Positions 33,213-57,200 of a stretch of DNA of 64,000 nt are shown here, piece after piece; the first letter of the stretch is position 1, and every line of letters starts with the position of its first letter. The position numbers and the translations under genes are program-made. The stretch is from Burkholderiaceae bacterium (GTDB lineage: Bacteria; Pseudomonadota; Gammaproteobacteria; Burkholderiales; Burkholderiaceae_B). The stretch spans positions 1-64,000 of the forward strand of contig JANQYI010000012.1 in NCBI GenBank assembly GCA_030728985.1, written 5' to 3'. Under the pieces are notes generated by a model that saw only the letters and a program-made list of their open reading frames with translations, was not told where the DNA came from and made no database searches.

Positions 33213-33517
33213 TTATTTTTTCTGCGAGACAAGCCGATCGGCGAGTGCGCTGATCTGATCATTCCAGTCAAGATTGGCGATACTTTCCATTGGAAGAAAA
33301 AGCGGCTTGTCGTACATATGACTGATGGTATCAGCGATGGTCGCAAGCCATTTGCTGTTGTCCCAGCCGCTCATGGCCGAGAGATCGCGTCCACTGGGCG
33401 CTGATTTGTACCGAGAACTGATCCATTGGGTCAGGATTCAGCGCAAATTACACCATCCAGCCAGAGCGTGATCTCGAGGCCGGGTAGTCGCTTGATGAGT
33501 TCACCGATACGGCTCAC
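33213..33517 (-). pseudogene. Decayed next subunit of the NRPS operon
   Basis: A GTG at 33517 overlaps the NRPS stop (GTGA) and has a perfect AGGAGG ten bases upstream inside the NRPS gene, the layout of coupled megasynthase subunits. The frame reads VSRIGELIKRLPGLEITLWL, then DG, and stops after 28 codons at 33431. LxxL...LWLDG resembles TubC-type N-terminal docking domains of NRPS subunits. A different open stretch on the same strand (33213-33374 from ATG; LATIADTISHMYDKPLFLPM then NLDWNDQISALADRL) ends in TAA at 33213 and could be the far end of the same gene, perhaps a thioesterase lid; that part is weak. Confidence 0.5.
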
Positions 33518-42500: not shown

Positions 42501-45500
42501 CCACTTTTGAGCAAGCGCCTAAGAGAGCTTGGATCAGATAGTCTACGGTTGGAAAATATTGGGCGACTGAATTGATCACGAAGGTATCGACTGATTCTTG
42601 CTCAATGTCATGTAAGTCGTTCGCGTCGCGGCACAGTAACGAAACATGATCAAAAGAATGTGTTTCGAGCCGTCTCTGCAATCGTTCGATCACTGCGCGT
42701 GAGAAATCTACTCCCGTGTATTGAGCGACATGAGGTGCTAACCGCGACAGTAACAGCCCAGTCCCACAGCCAATCTCCATGACACGTTGGGGTTTGAGCG
42801 CCAAAATACTGGATACGGTCTGCGTCACCCACTCTTTCATTTCCTCTTTTGGAATAGGTTGTCTAGTGTGACTGCTTAGCCAACCACTGAGATCATCCCA
42901 GCTCGTTTCTGCGCCGGCAGTGCCGCGGTATGTTTCATTCCATACAGTCTGCCATTTTTCATTCAGGGTATTGGTTCGGCCTTGATCCTGAGTAGACTCT
43001 TTCCAATCGGTCTTTGTTTCCACATAGGCCACGAGCTGGGCCTGGCCGAGATGGTCGGGTCGCGCGATTGCGACGGCATGGCTGACTGCCGGATGTTCGG
43101 CGAGTTTCGCTTCGATTTCACCTAGTTCGATGCGAAAGCCTCGAATTTTGACTTGATGGTCAATGCGACCGACATAGGTGATGATGCCGTCCTCTCTCGC
43201 GCGAACTAAATCGCCGGTTCGGTAGATTCTGGCGCCGGGTACTTCGCTATACGGATCTGGAAGAAATCGTTCCGCGGTCAGGCCGGGTTGACCAAGGTAG
43301 CCGCGACCAACGCCAAGACCGCCGATATAGAGTTCTCCGGAAAGTCCTTGTGGGGTCGGATCCAATGACGCGTCGAGAATATAGGTCTGTGTGTTGCCGA
43401 TCGGAAGCCCGATAGCCGCACCGGATCCAAGCTGAGCATTCTTTTCGGCCTCTGTGCGTTTGACTTTAGTGGCCACTGACCAGATCGTGGTTTCTGTTGG
43501 ACCGTATAGATTCCAGATTTGTGCGTCGGTTTGTACAAGCTGATTCGCCAGTGCACTGTCGAGAGCCTCGCCACCACAGAGGATGCGCCGCATTGGAAAG
43601 GTTTTAGTCCCCGTTGCAAGCAGCATACGCCAAGTCGATGGTGTTGCTTGCATGACGGTCGGCAGATGGGTTTCAATTTCCCTGAGGAGTTGAAAGCCAT
43701 CAGAGACCGTTTCGCGAGAAACAAGAACGACCCTGGCCCCGGTAATGAGGGGTAAATACAACTCAAGGCCTGCGATATCAAACGAAATCGTGGTGACGGC
43801 TAAAAGTACATCCTCGGTCTGCAAGCCCTGCTGATCTTGCATGGTTAGCAAGAAATTGAGCAAGGCTTGATGCGAAATCTGTACGCCTTTCGGCTTGCCG
43901 GTAGAGCCAGAGGTATAAATAACGTACGCAAGTGATTCGGGTGCAATGTTTGGGCTGTTCGCTCTGGGCGGGGTTATTAAGATCTCGCTCCAGTCACGAT
44001 CCAACAATATTCGGACAGCGACTCTACAGCTTATATGAGCGGCATGACTAGTGTGCTTAGCGTCTGGAAGGCATGATTCAGTCGCAGTTTGTGCAACGAT
44101 GATTCCGAGTTGAGCGCTCTCGATCATGGCCGCCAGTCGCTCTTTTGGATAATCAGGATCTAGGGGAATATAGGCCGCACCGGCTTTGAGGATGCCAAGC
44201 AAGCCGACCATCATATTGATCGAACGATCCAGACAAAGACCGACGAGTGTCTCTACGCCAACGCCTTTGTTGAAGAGGTAGCTCGCGAATTTTTCAGCGG
44301 CAAGATTGAGTTCTGCGTAGGTTATGGATTGTTCACCCATCGACACTGCAATGTTATCGGGTGATTGGCGCGCTTGCTCTTCGAACAGACTCACGATGGA
44401 TTGTTCAGTCGGCAGGGTCTGGTAGGTTTGATTCGCCTCGAACAAAACAGCTTTTGCTTGAGACGCTGACATCAGCGGGATGCGCGCAACGATTTGATCG
44501 CGCGACTGGATCAGGCCTTTGAGCATATTGGTGTAATAGCTTACAAACCTCTCGATCCAGCTCAAGTCGAACAAGGCCGTGTTGTATTCGAACTCACCAA
44601 GCAGTTCGCCGCCTTGCTCTTCGAGTTTCAAGGTTAGGTCGAACATCGAAGTCGCGGTATCCATCGGGATGCTGGTCATGGAGAGATCGCCGATCTTGAG
44701 CCCTGTTCTTTCCTGGTTTTGCGTCTGCAAAATAAACATAACTTGGAACAAGGGTGTAAAGCTTGGGTTACGTTCGGGTTTGAGGTGCTCCACTAGCCGT
44801 TCAAAGGGAATATCTTGATTTTGAAAGGCTTCGAGACAATTGTTTCTAACTTGCGCAAGCAGTTCGTGTCCCGTCGTCTCGGGCCCCAGCGAGGTGCGCA
44901 TGACCAGTGTGTTGACGAAGAACCCGATCAATGGCTCGAGATCTGGGTGAGTACGATTGGCGATCGGAGAGCCCACGACAACATCTTCTTGACGGCTATA
45001 GCGCGAGAGCAGGGCCGAAAATCCCGCTAATAAGGTCATGAACAGGGTGCATCCGGCAGCTTGGCTGAGGGCTTTGACTTCAGTCAGCAACTCGGCGGGA
45101 AGAGCAAAGCTATGCGCCGCGCCACTGAATGTTTGCGCGGGCGGGCGTGGACGATCCGTCGGCAAGTCAATCAGTGCGGGCACGCCGGCGAGTTTGTTTT
45201 TCCAGTAATTGAGTTGGTTGTTTAAACGAGAGCCGCTGAGCCAGTTTCTTTGCCATGAAGCGAAATCCCCATATTGGATCTTGAGAGCAGGCAGGGGTGA
45301 GGGCTGACCTTTGACGAAGGCTTCATAGAGGGTTTTAAATTCATGAAGCAGGACATTTCCGACAGACCAGCCGTCAGAAATGATGTGGTGAATCGAGACA
45401 GAGACAACATTATCAAGCGCAGAGAGCCGCAGAATACTGACCCTGAGCAACAGATCGCGAGTCAAATTGAATGTTTTTTGCGCTTCGAGTCGCAAGAGTG

Positions 45501-45921
45501 TTTCGAGCTGTCGTTCCTGCTCAATGACGTCTAAAAAGCTCAAATCAACCTGAGGGATGTGAAGGGTGACGCGCTCGGCAATGACTTGCGCTGGTTGACC
45601 CCGCTCGGATTGAAAATTAGTGCGCAATGATTCGTGTCTTTGAATGATTTCATCAAAGACGCGGTGTAAGGCTTTATAGTCAAGCTGCCCGTGTAGACGG
45701 AAAGCGATTGGCATATTGTAGGTTGCGTTCGCACCTTCAAGCTGATCTAAAAACCAGAGTCGCTGCTGAGCGAAAGACAACACGTCGCGACCGCTCGAGC
45801 GATCGCGCTTATTTATTTCTACATAACCGAATTGCTCTTGTTCGCCTATACTCTTGGAGAGTTGCAGCAATGCACGTTTAGCTGGCGATAGTTTGGCCAG
45901 ACGGTCAGCGACAGAACTCAT
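33514..45921 (-). CDS. Trimodular NRPS: C-A-nMT-PCP / C-A-PCP-E / C-A-PCP
   Basis: 4135 residues. Module 1: C (HHIISDG near 181), A (YTSGSTG near 670, YGPTETT near 807), an N-methyltransferase inserted before the last A motifs (VMEIGCGTGLLLS near 1049), PCP (LGGHSLL near 1488). Module 2: C (HHIISDEW near 1686), A (near 2168 and 2303), PCP (LGGDSI near 2557), epimerisation domain (HHLSVDG near 2746, EGHGRE, FNYLGQF). Module 3: C of the type that follows E domains (HHLLTDG near 3198), A (near 3686), PCP (near 4072), then an acidic end with no thioesterase. Pocket residues aligned by eye: module 1 D-I-L-Q-L-G-L-I-W, the glycine pattern; module 3 D-I-L-Q-F-G-L-V-W, glycine-like; module 2 D-V-G-L-I-G-E-I-M, unassigned. 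So N-methyl-Gly, a D-residue, then Gly is the likely order. AGGAG lies eight bases before the ATG. Confidence 0.93.
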   Translation of the reverse strand: MSSVADRLAKLSPAKRALLQLSKSIGEQEQFGYVEINKRDRSSGRDVLSFAQQRLWFLDQLEGANATYNMPIAFRLHGQLDYKALHRVFDEIIQRHESLRTNFQSERGQPAQVIAERVTLHIPQVDLSFLDVIEQERQLETLLRLEAQKTFNLTRDLLLRVSILRLSALDNVVSVSIHHIISDGWSVGNVLLHEFKTLYEAFVKGQPSPLPALKIQYGDFASWQRNWLSGSRLNNQLNYWKNKLAGVPALIDLPTDRPRPPAQTFSGAAHSFALPAELLTEVKALSQAAGCTLFMTLLAGFSALLSRYSRQEDVVVGSPIANRTHPDLEPLIGFFVNTLVMRTSLGPETTGHELLAQVRNNCLEAFQNQDIPFERLVEHLKPERNPSFTPLFQVMFILQTQNQERTGLKIGDLSMTSIPMDTATSMFDLTLKLEEQGGELLGEFEYNTALFDLSWIERFVSYYTNMLKGLIQSRDQIVARIPLMSASQAKAVLFEANQTYQTLPTEQSIVSLFEEQARQSPDNIAVSMGEQSITYAELNLAAEKFASYLFNKGVGVETLVGLCLDRSINMMVGLLGILKAGAAYIPLDPDYPKERLAAMIESAQLGIIVAQTATESCLPDAKHTSHAAHISCRVAVRILLDRDWSEILITPPRANSPNIAPESLAYVIYTSGSTGKPKGVQISHQALLNFLLTMQDQQGLQTEDVLLAVTTISFDIAGLELYLPLITGARVVLVSRETVSDGFQLLREIETHLPTVMQATPSTWRMLLATGTKTFPMRRILCGGEALDSALANQLVQTDAQIWNLYGPTETTIWSVATKVKRTEAEKNAQLGSGAAIGLPIGNTQTYILDASLDPTPQGLSGELYIGGLGVGRGYLGQPGLTAERFLPDPYSEVPGARIYRTGDLVRAREDGIITYVGRIDHQVKIRGFRIELGEIEAKLAEHPAVSHAVAIARPDHLGQAQLVAYVETKTDWKESTQDQGRTNTLNEKWQTVWNETYRGTAGAETSWDDLSGWLSSHTRQPIPKEEMKEWVTQTVSSILALKPQRVMEIGCGTGLLLSRLAPHVAQYTGVDFSRAVIERLQRRLETHSFDHVSLLCRDANDLHDIEQESVDTFVINSVAQYFPTVDYLIQALLGACSKVADGGRLFIGDLRGLQMLELQHTSVQLFQAEDHCDKEELNRRIQAAIDREEELLIHPRFFSTLRSLEPRIQSISLRLKSGAAHNEMTCFRYDVVIEIGRQPFRSVALATLQAALPEIDTSQHALTLEGLTQRLRDHPLGLCLRNVDNQRLQHDAATHEWLKSTQFHQDVAAFRKQLGQTPVKGLSIASMTELANTLGMEMGSAWSERQPYRTMDIVFVKKESDVTMHGIAIEMVYEDAALKTPNFAAWTNYPDRNLSKKLLISSLRQTLQEALPAYMVPASIVCLDRLPLTPNGKIDRFSLPAPDAVAQQATYLAPRNEAEMHLVRIWEDILGIERIGVRDNFFNLGGHSLLAVQVISKIRDYFSIELPLQALFDAPTLGQLAELLTTNQPNNTLQAPTIRLLTEQERTHAPLSFSQQRLWFLNELEGTSVTYHISGAVKIKGALVVETLERCFDEIVLRHETLRTHFVKINGAPVAKLAPHQPFKVQRFSVLNETKEQKAVSVAQLLENEATETFDLTQDLLLRVTLIQTNHHEHVMMLTLHHIISDEWSLGLLQVEVAKLYSAFSQAQTSPLAPLPLQFADYAAWQRQWMTRERLAEHLNYWVSELHDAPTLLELPTDRPRPAVQRYIGKTIPFRIEPSLTSRLRTLGHSCGATLFMTLLSGWSVLLSRHARTSDLVIGSPVTNRSRSELESLIGFFVNTVALRIRIDRTKSTIELLEQNRQKVLDAFKHQDVPFEYIVQDVKPERNLSHAPIFQTMFVMQNAPSADLSFGGLALEFIEQELRAAKFDLTLSIEEHQAGLNGVIEFNTDLFDASSITRMIEQYEYVLASMAQRPAAMIDSISLMSSYQAKQLSDCLHASATTETHTQTKIDAKLPSVLEQFKKKVLEQPEAIALSADQATLSYGELNARAEKIAAHIRTFGVRAHDVVGLYAEPTPEMIISLLAILKAGATYLPLLPGTPAERLSLMLNECSAKLVIDVTDSLLKVPGSETPVLTLEQLTQTEDKVYQDWGLDEKGIAYIIYTSGSTGQPKGVMVTRDNLAQATLSRLNYYNNEFSGLILLQPFSFDVATGNIFWTLCAGATLFLEPRSVAQDPQRLLDCLVRTQSSHLVLLPLLYAPLLDLATPEQLLALRTIIVGGEQMPLPLVQKHKEIVPQAGLFNEYGPTETTIMCCAYACAVHDSEQPIPIGRPMSPSKMYLFDHALHHVPSGLTGEICVGGPQVSSGYLGRPALTAEHFLPDPFSDQPGARMYRSGDLGKINIQGNIEFLGRQDHQVKIRGFRVELGEIEATLRAHPGVAELVVVAVKQGSSKKLTAYLVPHTTDQSNQQSNLITSLTQFARSSLPEYMVPSAFVLMQALPLTANGKLDHKSLPAPDSITPSSTFTAARNGIEEKLCKIWGNVLGIQQVGIHDNFFMLGGDSILSIQIVSRANQLGLGLSVKQLYQHQTIAKLSGQIGQGNTRLIEQGPLNGPFLLGPVQHWFLDQHPPEPHHFNQSLLLNLQTGLTQDIIFKAFSAIASHHDMLRSRFICKTNGWQAHIEPIEECTASVHSIDLRDLPVEQRSTAMIEHARKAQASLDLARGSISTAIRYHLSDEGPDKLLWIIHHLSVDGISWRILLEDLEQALEQCHGRREISFQPKTDSFPAWSQRLTDYSASNECEAELNYWKNIVSTEVPFLPVDTVSVVDPRLNTKSSALTLTKILPATLSEALLLKAPSAFKTQMNDVLLAALMMALNRWTGQNSARITLEGHGREELFEDIDISRTVGWFTSGFPVVLTKAPSNNHIDNILHTKNLLQSIPNKGVGFGILSFLHPDQAIRQSLHGGHDAQLSFNYLGQFKASQASTWILGEALEPTDHEHSPLGMRKPLIEINALHCRDHLEVNWTFSINLHHTKTIDLLAEHFMNVLTEIVALCDVGPNNLQDLYPLSPMQQGMLFHSQLGQEPGAYTIQLSSRMQGDFCPSLFMKAWQEVLDRHPSLRAVIVTPPGLDPLQKIVSQAKLPWFDFDWRDLSPEAQHEQWLALLDTDRKKGFDAETCPLMRCTLVQIEDHSWRFLWSHHHLLTDGWCLPILMREVLECYESFVSDRPYDAPLPPLYREYIEWLQSKDLDQAKTFWRDYLQGFDTPTSLGVDQKRLLAHASSETRDNEPRYGSCTIALDVQTTHSLTQLARIQGLTLSVLIQSAWSVLLSRYSGSDDVVFGATVSGRPAEIVGVEQMIGLFINTLPVRARIDTSESLPAFFLRMRDDQLTRDEYAFTPLVDIHACTDIPKRHSLFDSIVIFENYPVDSTLDAQAQALRIDEVEVHEQTGFPLTLTAAPGECIPLKLSWETSRFETGQAVRLLEHLTNLLTRLTTDLPNTVAQWSTSMMGTEEVEQLTQQFNRTAHESPDHQCTFFELFERRVQTHASSIAVICAEEKISYAELYARSLAIGASLREHGAIPGTRIGIYQHRTINMVATLLAIQSTGATYVPLDPGYPSGRIQYMLDDSQALLIISEDTLLHKLPKTTATRLSVQTLLKGTDNLDSTEISDKMSERVDAKMQNLAYIIYTSGSTGRPKGVPISHASLTNFLLSMQRTPGLTDHDVLLAVTTISFDIAGLELYLPLITGSRVVLASRKDAVDSGKLSTLIQDHGVTVLQATPTTWRMLLETKHTITSLKKGFCGGEGVPQELAQNLIGYGIEFWNLYGPTETTVWSCAKHIEAHAISAPYEDIGHPIDNTQIYIVDQYMNLMPRGAPGELLIGGAGLSLGYWHRADLTAEKFVPDPFGLDASAKLYRTGDLAYQRADGSFVCLGRIDHQIKIRGFRVEPGEIEALIKQHPSVKQALVSIWTPHPDDKRLVAYVVNQQDESNTDTLKSWLRTQLPAYMIPTEWVILDNFPLTPNGKLDRQALPEPGRDHHDAFVEPSTHTEALITELMSQTLQISRISATDDFFDLGGHSLLAGRFVAAVSNKLSVQLPLSTIFEKSTVKALSEHIDSLLWATKQMNPRSEVLSHDEEEFRL

Positions 45922-45978: not shown

Positions 45979-46164
45979 TCAGCGATTGTGAATGACGAAA
46001 TCAAACGAGAATCCACCGCGCGAAAAAATAAAATAGCCTCCGGCGACGAGGTCACTCACAGCTTCGGGCAAGTCTGCGGGATCGGCAAGCAGTCTTTGCT
46101 TGAATGATTCGTCAGCCCAGCATTTTTTGATAAGTTTTTCGTAGGGTTTGGCGTGGTTAAACAT
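45979..46164 (-). CDS. Nitrile-hydratase-type leader-peptide-like small protein
   Basis: 61 residues. The N-terminal half, [19 protein letters not shown] then ADP, closely resembles the helix shared by nitrile hydratase alpha subunits and the leader peptides of NHLP/TOMM-type ribosomal peptides (LIxxAWxDxxFKxxLLxDP). The second half, [20 protein letters not shown], is Gly/Phe/Ser-rich, has no Cys, and could be a core peptide or a short beta segment. The ATG at 46164 overlaps the mbtH stop by eight bases, so translation is coupled to mbtH, and the NRPS begins 57 bases downstream. A longer frame up to 46266 would lie inside mbtH. It could be a modified peptide, an NRPS-binding accessory protein, or a relic. 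Confidence 0.6.
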
Positions 46165-46366
46165 GTTGAGCCATTTTTTTTCGGAGTGAGAGAGGTCGCA
46201 TGTCGGTCCAAACAGTATTGATATGTTCGAGGCATGCGCTTTTGATGCCTCTGAAGCCTGCATCATGCCAGCCCGCAGGCAGGTCTTTAAAGTCTGGCCA
46301 AATAGAGTATTGTTCTTCGTGATTGATCACGACGATGAAGATCGGTTCTTTGGATTCTGAGGTCAT
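46157..46366 (-). CDS. MbtH-like NRPS accessory protein
   Basis: 69 residues, the whole family length. Hallmarks: [19 protein letters not shown], the GxxG stretch [14 protein letters not shown], and [11 protein letters not shown]. MbtH proteins bind A domains and allow their folding or activity; the trimodular NRPS downstream in the same operon is the obvious client. It is the first gene of the operon and divergent from the phosphopantetheinyl transferase. Confidence 0.96.
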
Positions 46367-46501: not shown

Positions 46502-47260
46502 ATGGCAGATTACTCGCAAAACCTCACGCAGGCGTTGGTATGGCATCTCGAGCCTGAGAGTATCGAAGATGCCGCAACGTGTGATTCGTTGATGCGATGG
46601 TTGTCCGATGATGAGCGCGCGCGCATGCAGAGATTTCATGCATCGCGCCATCGGCACGCTTACTTAATCAGCCATGCGTTAGTCAGGGGGGCATTGGCTA
46701 GAGAGCTTTCGTGCGATCCTGGCAGCCTTGTGTTTGAGACGAATGCGTTTGGTAAACCTCAACTGGTGCAGCCTGCGTCAACGCCGCGCTTGGAGTTCAA
46801 TTTAAGCCACACAGACGGACTCTGTGTGGTGGCGTTGTCTTGGCAATCCAGGCTTGGTTGTGATGTCGAGCACTTAAACCGACTGGGTCTCGATGTGGAG
46901 ATCTCGAGACGATTTTTTACGCCTGAAGAAAGCGAAGAGATCGCAACGCATCCTTCCGAGCGACAAATTCACCGCTTGCTATCTTATTGGACGCTCAAGG
47001 AAGCCTATATCAAGGCGGAGGGGAAAGGATTATCCATGGGCCTTGATACGTTTTATTTCAGTCTTGATAACGACTCGCCAAGACTGATACTCAAGCACGG
47101 TGCCCAGCAACCATCAGCGTCATGGCAGTTTCAGCAAGTGATTCTGAGGGATCGTTTCCTGTTTTCACTCGCGATCGCATGTGCTGAAGGCGTCTCGGAG
47201 AGCAAAGAAACAACGGTTGTATTTAATCAAGCAGATTGGATCGCGCATTCTTTGCAATAG
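46502..47260 (+). CDS. Sfp-type 4'-phosphopantetheinyl transferase
   Basis: 252 residues. Sfp-family motifs: FNLSHTDGLCVVAL, the magnesium-binding GCDVEHLNR, and the WTLKEAYIKAEGKGLSMGLD block. It loads the phosphopantetheine arm from CoA onto the PCP and ACP domains of the synthetases in this locus. It is the first gene of the plus-strand cassette, 114 bases before the lipoprotein gene. The ATG at 46502 gives a normal length for the family. Confidence 0.94.
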   Translation: MADYSQNLTQALVWHLEPESIEDAATCDSLMRWLSDDERARMQRFHASRHRHAYLISHALVRGALARELSCDPGSLVFETNAFGKPQLVQPASTPRLEFNLSHTDGLCVVALSWQSRLGCDVEHLNRLGLDVEISRRFFTPEESEEIATHPSERQIHRLLSYWTLKEAYIKAEGKGLSMGLDTFYFSLDNDSPRLILKHGAQQPSASWQFQQVILRDRFLFSLAIACAEGVSESKETTVVFNQADWIAHSLQ

Positions 47261-47373
47261 GTTCAATCAGATGCCCGGCCTGTGAGGTTTTGCGAGCATT
47301 GAAGCACGAGCGCCTCTTAACATGTATTTCATGCGTATTGAATAACTCTTTTAAACTTAGGATAATTGCGTCC

Positions 47374-48618
47374 ATGTCGATTAGATCTATTGTTGGAGGT
47401 CTGTCTGCTGCGGCCTTATTGGCACTCTCGGGTTGCAAGTCGATTGGCCCGGACTTTAATGAAATGACTGCCGCATACGCGGGCAGCATGGAAGTCCATT
47501 CACGCAACAACATATTGACTAATATCATGCGTGCCGCTTTTGACATGCCCATGACTTTTACGGACATCCCTACTGTTTTGGGACAGGGTTTGACTCAGGG
47601 GCAGGCCGGATTGACTGGCAATATCATGAGTATGGATCCCTCGACGCTGGCAGGATTCTTTTCGGCGGCACCACAAAGTAATTACACTCTTCAAGCTGGT
47701 CTAACAGTATCCCGGCAGTTTAGTTTCACTCTTTCCTCCCTCGATAATCAACAATTTACCAAGGGATTTTTGACGCCGGTGTCTCTGGACAACGTTCACT
47801 TTTTTGCTAAGTCAAGCCAATTATCTAAAGATCTTTTATTCAGTATTTTGGTTTATTCGATTGGAGTACACGAGCCGGGCAAACCAACCCAGGTCTTTTA
47901 TAACAATCCAGCTGATCCCGATTACCCAAAATATGAAACGCTCATTAATACGCTTCTTGATTTCGGGCTTACCACTGAAGCTGTCGTTAAGCCTATTGAT
48001 CTTGGGCCCGTCCTGACCTCCGAGCAAGCGGTGCGTTACATGACAAGCCCTATCGGGAATTTGCCACCTGGTGTGATACTGCGCAAGCTAAACACTCCGC
48101 AAGGTGAGCGTTTTCAGGCTTCCATCGTGAAACCGACGACTAGTTTTTGCATGAGAAATCGCGAAAAACAAAACGAGATTGCTGCACGTTTCGGCACAGG
48201 CATCTTCTGTAGCGATACTGACAGTAAAGGCAATGTTATCAACAAGCAACAAAGTGCAGCAAAAGGATCGGCTTCTGTCCAGAGACTTAGCATTAATATT
48301 CGTTCCACCCGCGATATCTTCCGCTACCTCGGCAAGGTTGCGGCGGACCAAACAGCCTCTACGCCTCGTGTTATGAAGGTTAGAACTTATATGGGTTATG
48401 GCAAGTACGACTACATACCACTTCTTAAGGTTAACAAGGGTTCAAACACAGGGTCTGGTCCCGTGATAGCTTCGGTTAAGTATTTTGGAAATGATTACAG
48501 TGTTCCGCTCGAAAAAAATGGATACTCCTCGGTTGTGTTTGACTTGTTGTCCCTACTAGTGACATTAAGCAAGATCCCTGGTGCGATTCCAGCTTCACCT
48601 GGAATCTTGATACAGTAA
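47374..48618 (+). CDS. Lipoprotein of unknown function
   Basis: About 414 residues. The lipoprotein signal is SIVGGLSAAALLALSGCKSI with the cysteine as lipidation site. No domain was recognised. It is rich in Ser, Thr and Asn, with a few cysteines in the middle (TSFCMRNREK and GTGIFCSDTD), and ends with a hydrophobic SSVVFDLLSLLVTLSKIPG. The position between the PPTase and the DUF697/ParA genes suggests an envelope component of the same cassette, perhaps an outer-membrane partner of the exporter. AGGATAA lies before the ATG at 47374; the longer frame from 47236 overlaps the PPTase. Confidence 0.72.
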   Translation: MSIRSIVGGLSAAALLALSGCKSIGPDFNEMTAAYAGSMEVHSRNNILTNIMRAAFDMPMTFTDIPTVLGQGLTQGQAGLTGNIMSMDPSTLAGFFSAAPQSNYTLQAGLTVSRQFSFTLSSLDNQQFTKGFLTPVSLDNVHFFAKSSQLSKDLLFSILVYSIGVHEPGKPTQVFYNNPADPDYPKYETLINTLLDFGLTTEAVVKPIDLGPVLTSEQAVRYMTSPIGNLPPGVILRKLNTPQGERFQASIVKPTTSFCMRNREKQNEIAARFGTGIFCSDTDSKGNVINKQQSAAKGSASVQRLSINIRSTRDIFRYLGKVAADQTASTPRVMKVRTYMGYGKYDYIPLLKVNKGSNTGSGPVIASVKYFGNDYSVPLEKNGYSSVVFDLLSLLVTLSKIPGAIPASPGILIQ

Positions 48619-48706
48619 TGAGATTATCTTTTACTGTCTTAATCCAGTAACGTAACTTTATTATCATGATTACTCTAATTTTCTAGCTCTTAAGATGGAG
48701 AAGATG

Positions 48707-49195
48707 ATGACTACAACAACCGATGCAACAGATACTTATGCCGTTGAGTTAAAAAAATTTCAGCGTCTGGATGCGGCTGGAGAAATTATTGCTTCTAATA
48801 CAAAGTGGAGCGTAGCGGCATCTTTGATCCCCGTTCCTTATTTGGATATCGCCGCACTCGGGGCTATACAGGTCAATATGATTGTTAACTTGGCAACCTT
48901 GTACGATCAGAAGGTGACCAAACAAGCAGTGCAGGGCGTGATTTCAGTCATGTTGGGTACGCTTGTTCCGGCTGGCGCCGCGCAGCTCGCTGTGACTTCA
49001 AGCGCAAAGTTGGTGCCTGGTTACGGCACGGCAATTGGTACAATTTCTTTGGCTACTTTTGGTACAGCAGCGACTTACTCAATCGGTAAGGTGTTTGTTC
49101 GTCACTTTGAAAAAGGTGGCACGATAGGAAATTTCAGTACAGCTGCTGTTCAGGAAGACCTCAAAAAAGAATTCGCACAAGCTTCGGAAAGCTGA
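48707..49195 (+). CDS. DUF697-like membrane-associated protein
   Basis: About 162 residues. The core WSVAASLIPVPYLDIAALGA followed by QVNMIVNLATLYDQKV is the signature of the DUF697 family (YcjF and GTPase-associated proteins). A Gly/Ala-rich hydrophobic stretch LGTLVPAGAAQLAV and GTISLATFGTAATYSIGKVF follow, ending with FVRHFEKGGTIGNF. The start is ambiguous; 48707 follows GGAG by six bases, 48695 and 48704 are alternatives. A second protein with the same core is encoded at 50083, and ParA lies between them. Confidence 0.75.
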   Translation: MTTTTDATDTYAVELKKFQRLDAAGEIIASNTKWSVAASLIPVPYLDIAALGAIQVNMIVNLATLYDQKVTKQAVQGVISVMLGTLVPAGAAQLAVTSSAKLVPGYGTAIGTISLATFGTAATYSIGKVFVRHFEKGGTIGNFSTAAVQEDLKKEFAQASES

Positions 49196-49217
49196 GCACT
49201 CGTTAGATTTCTTTCTG

Positions 49218-49246
49218 CGGATCATGTGCTTTAAACACATGATCCG
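49218..49246. other. Perfect 11-bp inverted repeat upstream of the parA-like gene
   Basis: Arms CGGATCATGTG (49218-49228) and CACATGATCCG (49236-49246) around a 7-base loop that itself contains TTTAAA. There is no T-run on either side, so it does not look like a terminator. It could be an mRNA hairpin or a protein-binding palindrome; its place 58 bases before a ParA-type gene makes a centromere-like site worth considering. Confidence 0.6.
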
Positions 49247-49303
49247 TAACCATTTCCGATCCCGCAGCCGAGAGCTGTTTTGTCAATAAGGTTGTTTGAT
49301 CGA

Positions 49304-50071
49304 ATGAAAGTCATCGCAGTCGCAAATCAAAAGGGAGGGTGTGCTAAAACGACAACAGTCGTGAATTTAGCGGCCGGCCTAGCACTGCGTGACTTTTCAG
49401 TTCTCGTCATCGATCTTGATTCTCAAGCAAATGCAACGAACTGGTTGGCTGGAAGCGTCAGCACGCCCGGTTCTTGGCAAATGTTGACAACACGTGAAGA
49501 CTTAGCAAGCCTGATTGTTCCTTCCAGTGTTTCAGGGGTTTCTTTGCTTGCCGGCTCAAGAGAACTCGCTAATCTCGAAAAAGCCTTGGCGGGCGAGTTA
49601 TCAGTCGAGACTTTGCTTAAACGCAGACTGGCAAAGCTTGGTAAAGAAGCTTTTGATTATGTATTAATCGATACACCACCAACCTTAGGGCTGATTACAC
49701 TGAACGCTTTATCGGCTGCTCAGCAGTTACTGATTCCCCTGACGACACACGTCATGAGTTTGTCGGGCGTCGCACAAATGTTTAGAACCGTGGATCAGGT
49801 CCGGGAAGTTTTAAATCCAGACCTTAATATACTTGGACTCGTGGCTTCGCGCGTCGATCTCAGAACACGCCATGCAAAAGATGTGTTGTCGACTCTGTCT
49901 GAGCGGTTTGGCGATAAGTTATTAAAAAGTTATGTGTATGAAAATGTCAGACTCGCTGAAGCTCCGTCCTTTCAACAAAGTATCCTGACTTACAATCCAC
50001 TTTCCACTGCAGCTCAAAATTACAGAGACTTGGCTGATGAGGTTGTTGCATTGACTTCGTCATTTAACTAA
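49304..50071 (+). CDS. ParA/Soj-family ATPase
   Basis: About 255 residues. Deviant Walker A VIAVANQKGGCAKTTTVVNL (the second P-loop glycine is Ala, as in some other ParA relatives), Walker A' region VIDLDSQANATNWL, and Walker B FDYVLIDTPPTLG. C-terminal SRVDLRTRHAKDVLSTL is typical of the family. Such ATPases use ATP-driven dimers on DNA or membranes to position plasmids, chromosomes or protein cargo. No ParB is encoded. It is flanked by two DUF697 proteins, one with a basic tail, suggesting cargo positioning at the membrane. The ATG at 49304 is preferred to 49280. Confidence 0.88.
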   Translation: MKVIAVANQKGGCAKTTTVVNLAAGLALRDFSVLVIDLDSQANATNWLAGSVSTPGSWQMLTTREDLASLIVPSSVSGVSLLAGSRELANLEKALAGELSVETLLKRRLAKLGKEAFDYVLIDTPPTLGLITLNALSAAQQLLIPLTTHVMSLSGVAQMFRTVDQVREVLNPDLNILGLVASRVDLRTRHAKDVLSTLSERFGDKLLKSYVYENVRLAEAPSFQQSILTYNPLSTAAQNYRDLADEVVALTSSFN

Positions 50072-50082
50072 AAGCTAAAACT

Positions 50083-51015
50083 ATGGCCTCACGTTCAAGA
50101 AAAACCATCCTGAGTAATCCGCTCGACGACATTAATCCTCAGAGTGTTTCAAAAGTATCGCCTTCCAAAAAGAGCGCTTTAGAAATACAAGCTCCCTCTT
50201 CAAAAAAATCCACTGCTAAGAAGACGTTCTCGAAATTGACCAAAACAACCCCAAGCTCAGCAAAAAAAAATCTTCAGAAAAAAACATCTGTAAAAGAGAC
50301 ACCTGTAAAAAAGACGGCATTAAAAACCGTCAAGAAAGATGCTGAACCGAGTGTTGAGTCTGCTCAAGCAATGTCAAAGTTCGATGAGTTGGCTGAAGTA
50401 TTGATTCTTGACGCCACAAATAGTCAAGCGAAAGCGAATAATCATTCGAAAAGTAAAAAGCAGTCCTCTGAAACAATTCAAAATCAGCCACGTGCCGACG
50501 ATGTGTTTGATGCGGAGTTGAGCAAAGAGCCACCTTGTGGGTTGATACGCGTTCGCCTCATCTCCGATCGTCAAACGCGCGCGATGAAAGTCGTCAAAAC
50601 CTGGTCTCAATGGTCTGTTGCAGCAGGAATTGTTCCTGTACCACTCATGGATGTGGCATTGGTATCGGGTATTCAGGTCAAGATGATTTATGACTTGTGC
50701 CAGATCTATAGCATCCCATTTGAAAAAAAATCTGCCCTCGCCGTTGCAAGCGGTCTCGTCGGCGGATCTTTGAGTTCAGGTGTTGCTCGAATAGCCGGTG
50801 AGATGGCATTGAAAACAATACCCTACGTCGAACAAGTATTGCAACCTACTCTGGCTTTCGCGACGACCTACAGTATGGGTTATGTTTTTGTAAAGCATTT
50901 CGAAAGTTCGGGAACGCTCTTGAATTTTGATACGAGTAAGATGAACATTTATTTTCAAGAACAGTTTGAGAAAAGTAAAAAACTGTTTTCCAAAAAACAA
51001 GCTGCAACCGCTTGA
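50083..51015 (+). CDS. DUF697-like protein with histone-like basic N-terminal region
   Basis: 310 residues. Residues 1-115 are low-complexity and very rich in Lys, Ser and Thr (KKTSVKETPVKKTALKTVKK), like eukaryotic H1 tails or bacterial AlgP/HctB-type proteins that bind DNA or polyanions. From about 170 comes a DUF697 core with WSVAAGIVPVPLMDVALVSG, QVKMIYDLCQIY and YVFVKHFESSGTLLNF, colinear with the protein at 48707. It starts 11 bases after parA. The basic region might engage the ParA-DNA matrix while the DUF697 part sits at the membrane; this is inference. Confidence 0.75.
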   Translation: MASRSRKTILSNPLDDINPQSVSKVSPSKKSALEIQAPSSKKSTAKKTFSKLTKTTPSSAKKNLQKKTSVKETPVKKTALKTVKKDAEPSVESAQAMSKFDELAEVLILDATNSQAKANNHSKSKKQSSETIQNQPRADDVFDAELSKEPPCGLIRVRLISDRQTRAMKVVKTWSQWSVAAGIVPVPLMDVALVSGIQVKMIYDLCQIYSIPFEKKSALAVASGLVGGSLSSGVARIAGEMALKTIPYVEQVLQPTLAFATTYSMGYVFVKHFESSGTLLNFDTSKMNIYFQEQFEKSKKLFSKKQAATA

Positions 51016-51039
51016 GTATCATAGAGTTGTTTATAAATA

Positions 51040-52701
51040 ATGCGTCTTAACATCCAGTCAGACTTAATTCAGTTTATCGCGCGTGAAAGCCTGAGTGATC
51101 TGAAAAGAGTTATCGCCATATCGTTCTTTGTTGGTTTGACCAATATGGGACTGATTGCCCTGATTAATAATGCTGCAGCCGATGTGAGCGAAGGTGAAAG
51201 CGTCACTCTGCAGTTTTTTATGTTCGCCATCATGCTGACGACGTTTCTGCTCATGACGAATATCGCGAACAGAGAAAACATCAAAAGCACCCAGAATCTG
51301 ATCTATAAGTTTAAGATGCGGATCATGCGCGAGGTGTTTCAGTCCGACATCTCTAAAGTAGATGATATTGGACGGGCTGAAATACTGCAAATCCTAGCCC
51401 GTGACACCCAGACTGTTTCTCAGTCCCTCACGATTTTGGTTGCTGCATGTCAGTCTTTGGCGACGCTTGCGTTTTTGACGCTTTATATGGCGACGATATC
51501 GTTAACCGCATTTTTTATTATCTTGATCTCGAGTGTGCTTATCTTCACGGCGGGCATAAGTGCGCTGCGCAACGTGACGGATGAGCTTGAAAAAGTATGG
51601 AAGCGGGAAAGTGCTCTCAATGAAATGTTCTCTGATTTCTTGAATGGATTTAAAGAAATCAAGATGCACTCAGATCGCGCTTATGATATCTCTCGCGAAA
51701 TGGTGGACGATGCCCGAGAAACGACGGACGTGAAAGCACAAGTGTTGATCTTAGTGGCGAATTTTTTTAACTATTTGCAGGTGCTGTTATATGTTGTCGT
51801 TGGTTTGATGATTTTCGTCGTTCCGATCATCTCTACGGATTTTTCAAAGAGCGTGATGCAGGCGGCGACGACCTCGCTCTTTTTGACGGCGTCTCTGACA
51901 GGTATTATCCAGAGCATTCCAAACCTTTCTCAGTCCAACGCTGCAGCACGCGCTTTGACACAACTCGAGAAAAAATTACTGTCCAGCAGTGATGAGCACA
52001 AGAATAATGCGCGTGAAGTTTTTGGCGATATTGAATCTATTCGTATTGAAAATATCAGATATCACTATCCAAATGGACAAGCAAATGAAAAGCCGAATGA
52101 AATTCGCGTAGACAATCAAAAATTTGGACTAGGTCCGATCAGTTATGAGTTCGAAGCTGGCAAGGTGTATTTTGTTCGTGGCAATAACGGCTCAGGCAAG
52201 ACCACGTTGATTCGTATTCTGGTTGGCTTGGCTCAGGCTGACGAGGGCGATATCTATGTCAATGGCACACCGATTTCTTTGCCTGCCACCAGTGACTATC
52301 GAAATCTCTTTTCGGTTGTTTTCACGGATTTCCATCTGTTTAAAAAGCTTTATGGTTTGAGTGATGTCACCCCTACCGAAATTGATCATTTAATTGAACT
52401 TTTCCAGATGAAAAAGAAATTGTCGATCACTGACGGTGTTTTCTCGAATCTTAGATTTTCAACGGGTCAAAAAAAGCGCCTTGCCTTAATGGTTGCCTTG
52501 CTTGAAAAGAGGCAAGTAATTATTCTTGATGAGTGGGCCGCGGACCAGGATCCTGAGTTCCGTCATTTGTTTTATGAGAAGATCATTCCGATGTTTAGAG
52601 CGATGGGAAAAACGGTAATCGCGATTACCCACGATGATCATTACTATCAATCCGCCGATCATTTGCTTCAGTTGGTAAATGGCCAACTCGTGTCAAGCTG
52701 A
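51040..52701 (+). CDS. Cyclic-peptide-export ABC transporter (SyrD/PvdE type)
   Basis: 553 residues with fused membrane and ATPase halves. Six hydrophobic segments occupy about residues 1-330. The nucleotide-binding half has Walker A RGNNGSGKTTLIRILVG, signature LRFSTGQKKRLALMVAL, Walker B VIILDEWAADQDPEFR and H-loop VIAITHDDHYY. The degenerate signature and the EWAADQDP block are typical of the SyrD/PvdE cyclic-peptide exporter family. It presumably exports the NRPS-PKS product to the periplasm. It is 24 bases after the second DUF697 gene and two bases before the SPFH gene. Confidence 0.9.
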   Translation: MRLNIQSDLIQFIARESLSDLKRVIAISFFVGLTNMGLIALINNAAADVSEGESVTLQFFMFAIMLTTFLLMTNIANRENIKSTQNLIYKFKMRIMREVFQSDISKVDDIGRAEILQILARDTQTVSQSLTILVAACQSLATLAFLTLYMATISLTAFFIILISSVLIFTAGISALRNVTDELEKVWKRESALNEMFSDFLNGFKEIKMHSDRAYDISREMVDDARETTDVKAQVLILVANFFNYLQVLLYVVVGLMIFVVPIISTDFSKSVMQAATTSLFLTASLTGIIQSIPNLSQSNAAARALTQLEKKLLSSSDEHKNNAREVFGDIESIRIENIRYHYPNGQANEKPNEIRVDNQKFGLGPISYEFEAGKVYFVRGNNGSGKTTLIRILVGLAQADEGDIYVNGTPISLPATSDYRNLFSVVFTDFHLFKKLYGLSDVTPTEIDHLIELFQMKKKLSITDGVFSNLRFSTGQKKRLALMVALLEKRQVIILDEWAADQDPEFRHLFYEKIIPMFRAMGKTVIAITHDDHYYQSADHLLQLVNGQLVSS

Positions 52702-52702
52702 G

Positions 52703-53824
52703 ATGAACATGCAAAAGACAAAGCGTCATATTTTCTCTCGCGCATGGAATGCGTTATTGCGCTGGGCACAAAAAAAAATATTGACCATTTTCTTCTTGGT
52801 CGTATTGCTCGTGTCCTCATTAATTGTATTGTGGCCCCGGATGTTTGTCCTCGTTCCCGCAGGCAATATTGGCGTGATCTATCGACCCTTGAGTCAGGGT
52901 GTTGACCTTGGTTTTGTGTTGCGGGAGGGTGCGTATCTGATTTTGCCTTGGAACAAGGTGACGCAGTATACGGTGCAGATTCAACTCAAAGAATTGCATC
53001 TTGAGTTGATGACATCGGACCTGCTCAAAACGAACGTCACGGTTTCTTTTCAGTTCGAGGCCAATCCCAATACGCTACCGTTGCTGCACAAATATGTTGG
53101 CGTCGACTATCTTGAAAAGCTGATCATTCCACAGGTCATTAAAGTCACCCGTGAAAAAGTCGCTCAGTTGAATTCGCGTATGGCGTATACCGGTGATATT
53201 GGTCAGGTCGCCAGTGATATCGCGATCACGACGGATAACCTTTTGATCCAACAACTTAGCCCGCCAGGTTTATCTAATGTGCGTTTAATTCGCGTGAGTT
53301 CCGTTCAGCTTACTTCAGTGTTATATCCCCCCTTCGTTCAAGCGGCGATTGATAATAAAGTCGTCGAGTCGGAAATTGCCGAAGCTTATAAATTCAAAAT
53401 CCAAGCTTCTCGCCTAGAAGCCGAACGTAAGGTGATTGAGGCGACAGGTATCCGTGACTTTCAAAATATTGTGAACGAGGGGATGACGGAAAATTATCTG
53501 AGGTTCCGCGGCATCCAGGCGACAGAGGAGTTAGCCAAATCTTCGAACGCCAAGACGTTGATATTTGGTTCAGGGCCATCTGGACTACCATTGGTGTTGG
53601 GTAATGCGGTGGATAATGCACCACCCGGAGCAATTGGAGGAACTGTGATTCAGGATCCGTTGAAGCAACCTGTGATGCAATCAACGGAAAGCAGCCAGAC
53701 AAAAAAGAATGCTGTGACAAAAGACGTCCCTGCGAAGGGGGGAGCCACTAAGGATGTACAACCTCAGGAGTCACCGACTAATGAACCCCCCGCGCCAGCG
53801 GCAGCGGTACCCATTAAAAAATAG
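52703..53824 (+). CDS. SPFH/prohibitin-domain membrane protein
   Basis: About 373 residues. One N-terminal membrane segment (ILTIFFLVVLLVSSLIVLW) is followed by a band-7/SPFH domain: VPAGNIGVIYRPLSQGVDLG, LREGAYLILPWNKV, NVTVSFQFEANP. An Ala/Glu helical stretch, EAYKFKIQASRLEAERKVIE, precedes a Pro/Lys/Thr-rich tail. SPFH proteins oligomerise on membranes and often stabilise partner proteins or microdomains. The start lies two bases after the exporter stop (52703; 52709 is the alternative), which ties it to the exporter. Confidence 0.87.
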   Translation: MNMQKTKRHIFSRAWNALLRWAQKKILTIFFLVVLLVSSLIVLWPRMFVLVPAGNIGVIYRPLSQGVDLGFVLREGAYLILPWNKVTQYTVQIQLKELHLELMTSDLLKTNVTVSFQFEANPNTLPLLHKYVGVDYLEKLIIPQVIKVTREKVAQLNSRMAYTGDIGQVASDIAITTDNLLIQQLSPPGLSNVRLIRVSSVQLTSVLYPPFVQAAIDNKVVESEIAEAYKFKIQASRLEAERKVIEATGIRDFQNIVNEGMTENYLRFRGIQATEELAKSSNAKTLIFGSGPSGLPLVLGNAVDNAPPGAIGGTVIQDPLKQPVMQSTESSQTKKNAVTKDVPAKGGATKDVQPQESPTNEPPAPAAAVPIKK

Positions 53825-54237: not shown

Positions 54238-57200
54238 CTATTTTTTTATCGTTTTTTTATGATTTGCAACGGAATCTCTGGTTCCAAGCGCTTCCAAAAG
54301 CTCCAAAGACAACTCTCCGCTCGCTAAAAGTGCCTCGACCTCTTCGTCGGTCATGCTCTCAAGACAATCAAGTTGGGCGGCGAGCTGATCCGTATCACTA
54401 TTTTCCAATTGCTTGTCCAAGAGCGCCTGGCTGAGTTGCGCGACGGTCGGATGCGCGAAAAGAAGCGCGATATCGACGTTGACTTTAAAGTCATATTGAA
54501 GCTCTAGAGTGAGCTGTGCCCCAAGCAGGGAGTGCCCCCCCAAGTCGAAGAAATTGTCTTCGACGCCGATTTGCTTGATACCCAAGCATTTTTGCCATGT
54601 TTGCGCAACGCTTTGCTCATACTCGTTGCGCGGAGCAACATAAGGGTTGGACAGGTAGGGGCGTTCGTACAGGCGATCTTCCGAAGAGGTGGCTGGACCC
54701 GAGGCGCTGTTCTTCTGTTGCCGCAGAATTTGTTCGCGGCGCGCCATCGGTGGATTGGTTGCGATCGTGACGCAAGCCATTTCATCGAGCTTCATCAGAC
54801 GCTCAAACGCTTGCATTCCTTCTTCAGGAGACAAGGGTAGATCTGTCCGTGCAGAAAGTTCTGATTTAGCGGTATTTTCTGCTTTCCAACTGTCCCATTG
54901 GATAACCATCCATGGCACATCGTGACGTTGATTATGTTGATGGGCAAAGGCTTCGAGATGCAGCGCGGCGACAGTGTGGGCGACTTGTCCTGTGCCGCTG
55001 ATTTGCGCCGTTAAAGACGACATCACCATGCAAAGATTCACTTCATGCTTTTCTAATGCCGTTTCTAGCTCGAGGAGTTGATTCTGTTGCGCGTTCCAAT
55101 AGGTCGAAAGCGCTTGTTCGTCTAGTGCTTGTATGAGCCCAAAGGGTTTTTTAGAGTGCATATCGACGGCATGTATAAATACATCGATGGCTTGCCATTT
55201 TTCTTGGACGCGTTCAAGGAGCGCAGAGAGTGACTGTGTTGAGATCTCCTTGAGCTCTACGGCCTCGACGCTCGCTCCGAGCGCTCTTAAGGACTCGATC
55301 TCCGCTTGTCGGCGTGTCAGTGTCGCGCTTGATTGGGCGGTCAGCACCATTTTGCTACCCGGAAGTTTGGCCAGTGCTTTGGCAAAGACGAGGCCTATAT
55401 CTTCTAGACCATCAGTAATTACATATACACAGTGAGCTTTAAAAATACCCAACGCGGGATCGCGTTCCTCTGGGTGGATTGGGCGCAATTCTGGAATCCA
55501 GCGATTGCTATTACGCAAGACGATTGTTGAATCACAGGTCTCGCTTACCAATTCCGCTGTCAGTTTTTCACAGAGTCTTGATAGTTTTTTTGTTGTAGTT
55601 GGTGTAATGATATCGATTGTTTGCGTATCGAAATGTGTGAATTCATAGTTGAGGGTACGCATCATGCCAAGCAGTGCTGCTTGAGCGGGCTCAATCGTTA
55701 AGCTCGGATCGGTCGCGAGAACATGTTCACTGATCGCGGCGAGTCGCAATGGCCGATCATCGCGCTGTGCCGAGATTGCTTGAACGAGTTTGATCAGTGG
55801 ATCGCAGACAGTGCTAAGCGTACGGGTGATTTTGTCACCGTCTGCTGTATGCGAGCCATTCAGAATGGGCAAGTACACCAAGGTGTCACAGTCCTTGCTC
55901 GAGACGACGCACTCATCATGGGTATGCGACAGAGAGACGGTATGACCCTGTTTAGCCAAGGTGTCGCGCAATAGGCTTGCAAGGGGACTCGATGGTCCGT
56001 AAAGGGAAAAGCGTTGTGCATTTGGCGTCGCTTTTCCATTTGGGCTCTGACTTAGTACCCAGCCAGGCAAATAAAACCAGTCGTCTGGATTCTTACGGCG
56101 ACGTGCATCGTTCTGCGCGAAACTTGAAGCTGATTTCTGACCACCAGGTTGAATCCAGAATTTTTGTCTTTCAAAGGGATAGGTCGGAAGCGGGACACGC
56201 AGTCTACTCTCGTTTTCATAAAAACCTGCCCAGTCAATGGCGACACCAGCACACCAAAGTTGGCCCAGCGCGGTGAGCATGAAGGCTTGCGCGCCGATGG
56301 TTGCTTGCGCGGTCGGTAAGCTTACGACTAACGTGCGTTGATTTTCCTGAACCGCTATCGAAGCCAGGCTGGTCAGGGTGCGTCCTGGACCTATTTCGAG
56401 CAGAACGGCATGCTTGTCTGAATGCAATAAAGTTTGAATCCCAGCTGAAAAACGTACAGTTTGTCTGATGTGTTCACGCCAATAGTTGGGGTCGGTGACT
56501 TGCGCTGCGGTGATCCAGGTGCCAGTTAGGTTGGAGATATAAGGAATCTGAGGAGCTTGAAAAGAAATATGCCGCGTTTGAGCGCTAAAGCTCTCAAGCA
56601 TTGGCTCCATCATCGAGGAGTGAAAGGCGTGCGAAGTTTGCAGGACCGTGCCGTTGACGTTCTGCGCGAGCAAATGTGCTTTGAAGGCGTCGATGTTTTC
56701 AATGGTGCCTGAAACAACCGTAAGGGCTGGTCCATTGACCGCTGCGATATCAAGAGAGATCTTACTTGCCGTGAGTTGTTCCATGACCTTGTGCTCAGCC
56801 AAGGGTACAGAAAGCATAGCTCCAGGCGGCATGCTCTGCATCAGGCGACTGCGAATACTCACCAGTGTTAGTCCATCCTCCAAGCTAAAGACGCCGGCCA
56901 GACAGGCGGCGACATATTCGCCGAGGCTGTGACCGATCATGGCCTTAGGTGCTACACCCCAGCGCATCCACACGCGCGCGAGGGCATATTCAAGTGCGAA
57001 GAGCGCAGGTTGTGTCAACGAGGTATTTTTGAGCATTTCCTGAGCTTGAGCCTGCGCCTCAGGAAGTGGGAAAAGCACGGCGCGAATATCCTGACCGATC
57101 AAGGGTTCCAGAAACTCGGCACACTGATCGATGAGGGCGGTGAATAAAGGTTCATGTTGATAAAGCTCTCTACCCATGCCTGAATACTGGCTTCCTTGTC

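Follow-up and report, generated by a model that had tools for sequence, protein, structure and literature searches.

A ParA-DUF697-exporter-SPFH cassette linked to nonribosomal peptide and polyketide synthesis genes: a predicted positioning system for a peptide exporter complex

What does a ParA-type ATPase do in a locus for the synthesis of peptides and polyketides? This question is raised by a 64,000-nucleotide stretch of a Burkholderiaceae bacterium (assembly GCA_030728985.1, contig JANQYI010000012.1, positions 1 to 64,000 of the forward strand; hereafter the window), whose genome comprises 2.35 Mb at 86.7% completeness. Between two minus-strand blocks of megasynthase genes, nonribosomal peptide synthetase (NRPS) on one side and polyketide synthase (PKS)/NRPS on the other, lies an intact plus-strand run of seven genes (46502-53824). 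They encode, in order, a phosphopantetheinyl transferase (PPTase), a lipoprotein, a DUF697 protein (DUF697a), ParA, a second DUF697 protein (DUF697b), an ATP-binding cassette (ABC) exporter and an SPFH protein. The gaps between the genes from lipoprotein to SPFH measure 76, 84, 11, 24 and 1 base, respectively. An earlier note on this DNA had listed the lipoprotein, the two paralogous DUF697 proteins flanking ParA, the exporter and SPFH, and all of these open reading frames (ORFs) are indeed open at the coordinates given below. It had also suspected a machine that positions the megasynthase or the exporter. We likewise favor a positioning system based on ParA, whose cargo may be the exporter, the megasynthase or both; the cassette is probably a ParA-type positioning system for a peptide exporter complex scaffolded by SPFH and DUF697 proteins.

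The ParA/Soj-type ATPase (49280-50071, plus strand; AAA_31, 157 bits) has ParA/Soj proteins as its closest solved structures (e.g., 1wcv, E = 7.7e-63). It is 56-64% identical to nine other cassette ParAs aligned with it and carries a deviant Walker A motif, KGGCAKTT, which is invariant in 10 cassette ParAs. Within the seven-gene run, Pfam and NCBIfam scans detected no member of a ParB family, in line with the previous suggestion that a ParA without ParB could place a protein cargo. The cassette thus resembles ParABS partition systems in its Soj-like ParA and differs from them in lacking ParB, whereas at the genome's other ParA (L234) the gene that follows encodes a ParB (ParB_N, 126 bits) starting MVTKKPKGLGRGLEALL. 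The N-terminus of this ParB is likewise basic, providing a built-in comparison.

DUF697b (50083-51015, plus strand; PF05128, 44 bits over residues 156-299) begins with the basic motif MASRSRKTILSNPLDDI. The corresponding pattern, R.RKT[ILMV]..NPL, is found on the N-terminal part of the protein that is usually encoded next after ParA. In DUF697b the motif is followed by a Lys-rich disordered tether (approximately residues 26-129) and a five-helix DUF697 domain (residues 156-309). The AlphaFold model has a predicted local distance difference test score (pLDDT) below 50 in the tether and mostly of 79-96 in the domain, with a dip to 63-67 at residues 231-250. We counted the motif at 24 distinct cassette ParAs, excluding ParA ORFs shorter than 225 aa, merging duplicates on the last 200 residues, and loosening the search pattern (Q and N allowed) after a stricter form had missed L041. 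Of the 24 cassettes, 23 had the motif protein within the fetched stretch, and in 22 it directly followed ParA, the L221 copy being truncated to 84 residues; the L222 copy is 6.8 kb from ParA, and none was found on the 10.6 kb contig of L224. With the stricter pattern, 6,530 ORFs from 236 overlapping records gave 41 matches, 40 in ParA cassettes and one outside (L087). The motif was absent from all 25 DUF697 proteins taken from stretches without a cassette ParA, three of them from the window's genus (L166-L168); these proteins were hand-picked, some of their stretches are short, L214 has a weak ParA-like ORF 4.3 kb away, and L202, L211, L212, L093, L094, L102, L124 and a further set of DUF697 loci were excluded from the count.

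The conservation is confined to the very start of the protein. In ungapped comparisons of 23 adaptors the mean pairwise identity was 51% over the 17-residue motif versus 11% over the next 60 residues. The basic region, which the earlier note had described as histone-like and as a possible link between membrane and nucleoid, is therefore real but is better described as a short conserved motif plus a variable, Lys-rich disordered linker. Judged by this pattern of conservation, a histone-like nucleoid binder is less likely than a tail that binds or activates ParA; contact with DNA would be ParA's own job. Passages of PMC7993993 describe the activators of ParA/MinD ATPases as proteins in which an N-terminal peptide of positive charge is grafted onto a domain that binds protein, DNA or membrane. 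DUF697b has this anatomy of charged N-terminal peptide, flexible tether and cargo domain, and for this reason we read it as the cargo adaptor. Its first 17 residues (50083-50133, plus strand) are the proposed ParA-activating peptide, and the likely cargo is the assembly of exporter and SPFH. In five genomes of the window's genus (G005, G011, G016, G025 and G031) and in Polynucleobacter G143, a small protein of its own, without DUF697, carries the motif, and DUF697b is tail-less; the ParAs of these six genomes form one clade (support 99/96). Two of the separate adaptors (L174:14034-14831 and L225:2688-3416) have at their end, in place of DUF697, a small domain that includes a glycine-rich hydrophobic stretch.

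Could the ParA gene and the basic tail instead be a remnant of a DNA segregation system that hitch-hikes in the cluster? ParA genes are common on mobile DNA, and the ParA of the cassette is Soj-like. We rejected this explanation, which we consider very improbable, because the seven-gene run holds no ParB. It also does not fit the order ParA-adaptor-exporter-SPFH, which is kept across different neighborhoods and two genera, or the location of the motif on DUF697 or on a small protein without a Pfam match rather than on a known DNA-binding protein.

A second type of ParA precedes a DUF697 protein in three distinct loci, L236 (Balneolales, G062), L248 (Burkholderiales, G1049) and L239 (G718). A profile of this type scored 750 bits in L236, 196 bits in L248 and at most 85 bits on all other sequences compared; the ParA of L239 was recognized by local alignment. 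The partner DUF697 proteins carry a different basic motif, RRRLY[EQ] at residue 9-11 in L236 and L248, and at residue 43 in L239. RRRLY occurs in all three distinct loci with the second ParA type and in no other ORF among 7,068 (L086 repeats L236). The sequences thus point to two ParA types, which differ in the basic motif that comes with them and share the cargo domain. They support the positioning system, of which we put forward a fuller version only tentatively: a dedicated ParA-adaptor pair may place, space and pass on a prohibitin-caged complex for the export, or synthesis and export, of natural products. The ParA-DUF697 pairing would have arisen at least two times, with the N-terminal activating peptide grafted onto a pre-existing DUF697-SPFH-exporter module and once moved to a separate protein.

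Is the cassette tied to NRPS and PKS genes beyond the window? The order (DUF697a)-ParA-DUF697b-ABC-SPFH reappears around many lipoprotein matches in the window's genus, and the named records sharing the cassette are Burkholderiaceae/Alcaligenaceae, beta-proteobacterial metagenome-assembled genomes and Polynucleobacter yangtzensis. Loci L033-L072 were retrieved via lipoprotein matches, so that the lipoprotein linkage at these loci is biased. NRPS, PKS and exporter calls were made with profiles from the window's own genes and self-set thresholds unless a Pfam match is given. Cassette-type SPFH (profile A1) was found in 24 of 32 genomes of the genus and the condensation domain (PF00668) in 26; 23 genomes had both and 5 had neither (Fisher P = 0.0015, where this and the following tests take genomes as independent and ignore their relatedness, a point against the strength of the link). 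The three genomes with a condensation domain and no SPFH (G018, G021 and G030) are 83, 65 and 86% complete, and the cassette of the only genome with SPFH and no condensation domain (G004) adjoins a 2,533-residue PKS. Eighteen genomes are at least 90% complete with at most 5% contamination, and of these 13 had both, 1 had SPFH only and 4 had neither. Beside the cassette we found NRPS genes (G000, G012 and G022), condensation domains (G006 and G008), PKS genes (G004, G010, G020 and G023) and, nearby, a CmlA-type NRPS-tethered hydroxylase (G001, G003, G006, G015 and G028). The cassette is broken over contigs in G001 and G003, and there the hydroxylase is linked through a DUF697-ABC-SPFH fragment or an SPFH fragment alone.

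The order ParA-DUF697-exporter-SPFH recurs in Polynucleobacter, which is an independent test of the linkage. The SPFH profile matched 9 of 151 genomes, 7 of them above 320 bits, and a condensation domain was present in 7 of 151; all seven were among the nine SPFH matches (P = 1.2e-10). Counting only the seven strong SPFH matches, five are common to both sets (P = 7e-7). In the two genomes with SPFH and no condensation domain (G107 and G125), the contigs that carry the cassettes measure 3.5 and 4.1 kb. The weaker SPFH matches, G148 and G162, belong to a ParA-less variant; the stretches of this variant (L218 and L219) hold two exporter-like ABC genes, SPFH, a 752-residue protein and PKS, with no ParA or DUF697. 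In L221 (G187) the exporter gene of the cassette and the neighboring NRPS gene are both in pieces, as if decaying together.

Across the phylum, we searched 398 genomes with a DUF697 profile (A4) built from cassette proteins and proteins of named records. At E ≤ 1e-15 it matched 24 genomes, of which 16 besides the window's own scored above 149 bits and the other 7 at most 91 bits. A condensation domain was present in 13 of the 16 genomes with cassette-type DUF697 versus 95 of 397 overall (P = 1.3e-6); six of the 16 are of one genus, and counting that genus once gave P = 5e-4. The 16 genomes contributed 17 loci, with SPFH in 14, condensation, ketosynthase (KS) or adenylation domains in 11 and a SyrD-type exporter in 6; at least one of these was seen in 16 of the 17 loci, the exception (L206) starting at a contig end. 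By contrast, none of seven low-scoring control loci (57-89 bits versus the cassette profile), which we read as YcjF type, had SPFH, NRPS/PKS or a SyrD-type exporter nearby.

These counts bear on the possibility that the genes were inserted by chance, with no functional link to the NRPS/PKS locus. Several loci speak for this possibility and weigh against the proposed link. In five genomes of the window's genus (G005, G011, G016, G025 and G031) the fetched cassette stretch carries no NRPS/PKS gene; the cassette adjoins the housekeeping genes nlpB and dapA in G005 and G031 and nlpB in G011 and G016, and G025 has the same lipoprotein/DUF697 arrangement downstream. A further five (G007, G009, G013, G019 and G026) show no megasynthase beside the cassette on contigs shorter than 10 kb. 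No megasynthase was seen either on the stretches with the ParA-less cassettes of G027 and of a second G020 contig. The first five genomes all have condensation domains on other contigs. Co-occurrence in three samples (genus, Polynucleobacter and phylum) and the recurrent neighbors PKS, NRPS, CmlA-type hydroxylase and MbtH contradict chance insertion; we rejected it on the co-occurrence counts, and it is hardly credible as an explanation. The earlier note had proposed a search for such co-occurrence, and the association is real in all three samples. It had named homologous NRPS loci without these genes, and the genes lying mostly elsewhere, as the mark of a chance insertion; at the genome level this was not what we saw, with one five-genome clade lacking adjacent NRPS/PKS genes.

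We then considered which partner the conserved genes share. The exporter (51040-52701, plus strand) is of the SyrD/PvdE type for cyclic peptides; it scores 287.6 bits with TIGR01194 and so clears the curated cut-off of 286.2 by 1.4 bits. The SPFH/Band 7 protein (52703-53824, plus strand; Band_7, 65.8 bits, cut-off 23.6) is encoded from one base past the exporter stop codon, and in the ParA cassettes of relatives the two genes adjoin wherever both are seen. Its profile matches prohibitins best among structures in the Protein Data Bank (PDB) (E = 2.8e-18). DUF697a (48695-49195, plus strand; PF05128, 48 bits, cut-off 27.7) is a short protein without the basic tail and is 34% identical to DUF697b, indicating that the two are paralogues. 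DUF697, exporter and SPFH occur together without ParA in records of several phyla, which hints that DUF697 belongs with the exporter and SPFH and not with ParA. We conclude that DUF697, SPFH and a peptide exporter make up a wider module, to which ParA was added in some lineages as an optional part. Two added samples, 195 genomes of the Balneolales class and 399 of the order, yielded 12 more loci besides L236 (= L086). Megasynthase genes were present in L238, L244, L246, L247 and L248, a SyrD-type exporter in L239, a KS-like ORF in L237, and in L245 a SyrD-type exporter and SPFH with a KS-like ORF at the end of the stretch. Periplasmic binding proteins recur beside SPFH. At the SPFH/DUF697 loci L101 (7633-9876) and L203 (5877-9359), a fusion protein combines a periplasmic binding domain with TSP3 repeats and an OmpA domain, possibly as a peptide carrier anchored to the cell wall.

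The same loci allow two other readings to be weighed. One holds that the megasynthase itself is the cargo, that ParA and the DUF697 adaptor place or cluster the NRPS/PKS, and that exporter and SPFH form the membrane dock of a synthesis-export megacomplex. It draws on L248, where the ParA gene overlaps with the NRPS gene and with the DUF697 gene by four bases each, all on one strand, on L236, in which ParA and DUF697 genes follow an NRPS gene on the same strand, and on the place of the window's cassette between megasynthase operons. However, in L201 and L203 DUF697 and SPFH stand with C39-peptidase ABC exporters and there is no megasynthase in the fetched stretch, which suggests that the common partner of the module may be the exporter; the megasynthase as cargo is unlikely, if still a serious contender. 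The module beside C39-peptidase exporters is perhaps used for ribosomal peptides, too. The other reading, also raised in the earlier note, is self-protection: SPFH and DUF697 would shield the inner membrane against the peptide product, and ParA would only regulate this response. SPFH proteins organize membranes, the module travels with peptide exporters, and its presence tracks NRPS genes even when these lie elsewhere in the genome. But self-protection leaves unexplained why ParA comes in two types with an adaptor motif particular to each, and why the SPFH gene lies directly against the exporter gene, and we regard it as rather improbable.

Returning to a positioned exporter complex, the linkage of the genes is observed, and we infer the following mechanism. 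In the inner membrane, SPFH would assemble in the manner of prohibitins into a ring or cage that surrounds the ABC exporter or lies next to it, and the DUF697 proteins would dock to this assembly. ParA-ATP would bind the nucleoid. The N-terminal motif of DUF697b would then bind the ParA dimer and trigger ATP hydrolysis and release, like known ParA activators. As a result, the export assembly, perhaps with the megasynthase that feeds it, would either be distributed over the length of the cell or be brought to a particular site, and at division the daughter cells would share it. In the envelope, the lipoprotein may serve as the exporter's partner.

Several observations weigh against this mechanism. 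It is drawn from sequences and models and is computational throughout, and the contact of DUF697 proteins with the exporter or SPFH is a prediction. The net charge of the motif, +1 to +5, is modest. In L239 the motif lies away from the very start of the protein and the ParA is a 69-residue C-terminal fragment at a contig end. Most modules read outside the window's family are without ParA, which is therefore dispensable for their basic function. Four loci from the Balneolales class (L240-L243) encode a similar DUF697 and no SPFH, megasynthase or SyrD-type exporter in their stretches; their DUF697 ORFs have 186-240 residues, and the one in L240 adjoins a KDPG aldolase-type gene and lies near an M28 peptidase. 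Finally, DUF697 and the lipoprotein are without a solved relative in our searches, as PDB profile searches gave no match at E ≤ 1 and Foldseek with the models (against the PDB for the lipoprotein) none at E ≤ 0.001.

How does the cassette compare with known systems? In McdA/McdB of carboxysomes, PpfA/TlpT of chemotaxis clusters and PomX/Y/Z, as in the cassette, a ParA-type ATPase comes with a partner whose N-terminal peptide, disordered and of positive charge, is joined to a cargo-specific domain (passages of PMC7993993 and PMC10241942). In contrast to these systems, the partner domain of the cassette is DUF697 or a small domain without a Pfam match, and the neighbors are a peptide exporter, SPFH and NRPS/PKS, a cargo class absent from those passages. 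The ParA/MinD cargos named there are plasmids, chromosomes, bacterial microcompartments, flagella, chemotaxis clusters, the divisome and conjugation machinery (PMC10241942; PMC7993993). Our search of the open-access literature, with subscription papers mostly outside it, found no description of a DUF697 adaptor, a DUF697-SPFH-peptide exporter module or such a ParA cargo, and the previous remark that no described system of this composition was known to its author holds to that extent. Positioning by ParA is a known kind of system; what is apparently undescribed is the setting of this cargo, the use of DUF697 as an adaptor and the module of DUF697, SPFH and a peptide exporter, and their function is a prediction.

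The other parts of the cassette also depart from their better-known relatives. With prohibitin, HflKC and flotillin scaffolds the SPFH protein shares the Band_7 domain and, as nearest solved structures, the prohibitins, but its gene adjoins that of a peptide exporter, whereas the usual gene partners of SPFH scaffolds are FtsH or flotillin partners. The exporter resembles SyrD/PvdE in passing the TIGR01194 cut-off and differs in having SPFH and DUF697 partners, which to our knowledge are not known from syringomycin or pyoverdine loci. The DUF697 domain is common to the cassette and to the E. coli-type DUF697 proteins YcjX-YcjF. TIGR01620, which we take to be the model covering YcjF, matched DUF697b only at E = 0.003 (17 bits versus a cut-off of 160) and did not match DUF697a; we rejected an ordinary YcjF on this score gap and on the neighbors.

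As far as we know, the arrangement of NRPS/PKS megasynthases and their exporters in cells is little understood. If true, a ParA system dedicated to an assembly for peptide export would be a new cargo class. The gene set accompanies genes for antibiotic-type peptides and polyketides in many bacteria, which points to active placement of the machinery for exporting such compounds in some cells. The DUF697-SPFH-peptide exporter module could also be used to flag loci of peptide biosynthesis. The paired motif and ParA types give specific mutational predictions, and the full cassette of P. yangtzensis (L083) makes the idea testable in a named strain.

The lipoprotein (47374-48618, plus strand) has a lipobox, LSGC, identified by eye, and no match in Pfam and NCBIfam scans. 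A search of 61 genomes found relatives in 27, every one of them from the window's genus, with up to several copies per genome; the family is also present at the Polynucleobacter cassettes L221, L222, L224 and L225. One relative adjoins a PKS gene on a contig without the cassette (L037), and a weak relative lies at a Methylococcaceae SPFH/DUF697 locus (L101). The AlphaFold model of the lipoprotein, built from 4 sequences only, is of low confidence (mean pLDDT 57.8).

Upstream, the plus-strand run opens with the PPTase, a Sfp/HetI-type 4'-phosphopantetheinyl transferase accessory to NRPS/PKS (46502-47260, plus strand; Pfam ACPS, 71 bits, and AASDHPPT_N; HetI-like, under the equivalog cut-off). 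The flanking minus-strand blocks comprise an NRPS of 4,135 aa with four PF00668 condensation domains (33514-45921) and a PKS of 1,531 aa with a hybrid NRPS gene (54238-63980; condensation domain at 60792-62114). Between NRPS and PPTase, a small minus-strand gene (45979-46266) occupies the position where MbtH might be expected. We rejected its assignment as MbtH, as it had no MbtH match and instead weakly matched NHLP leader and nitrile hydratase alpha families; a pattern search for its motif gave no match in loci L033 and later. MbtH genes do adjoin the cassettes of G006, G012, G015 and P. yangtzensis and, by eye, that of G022.

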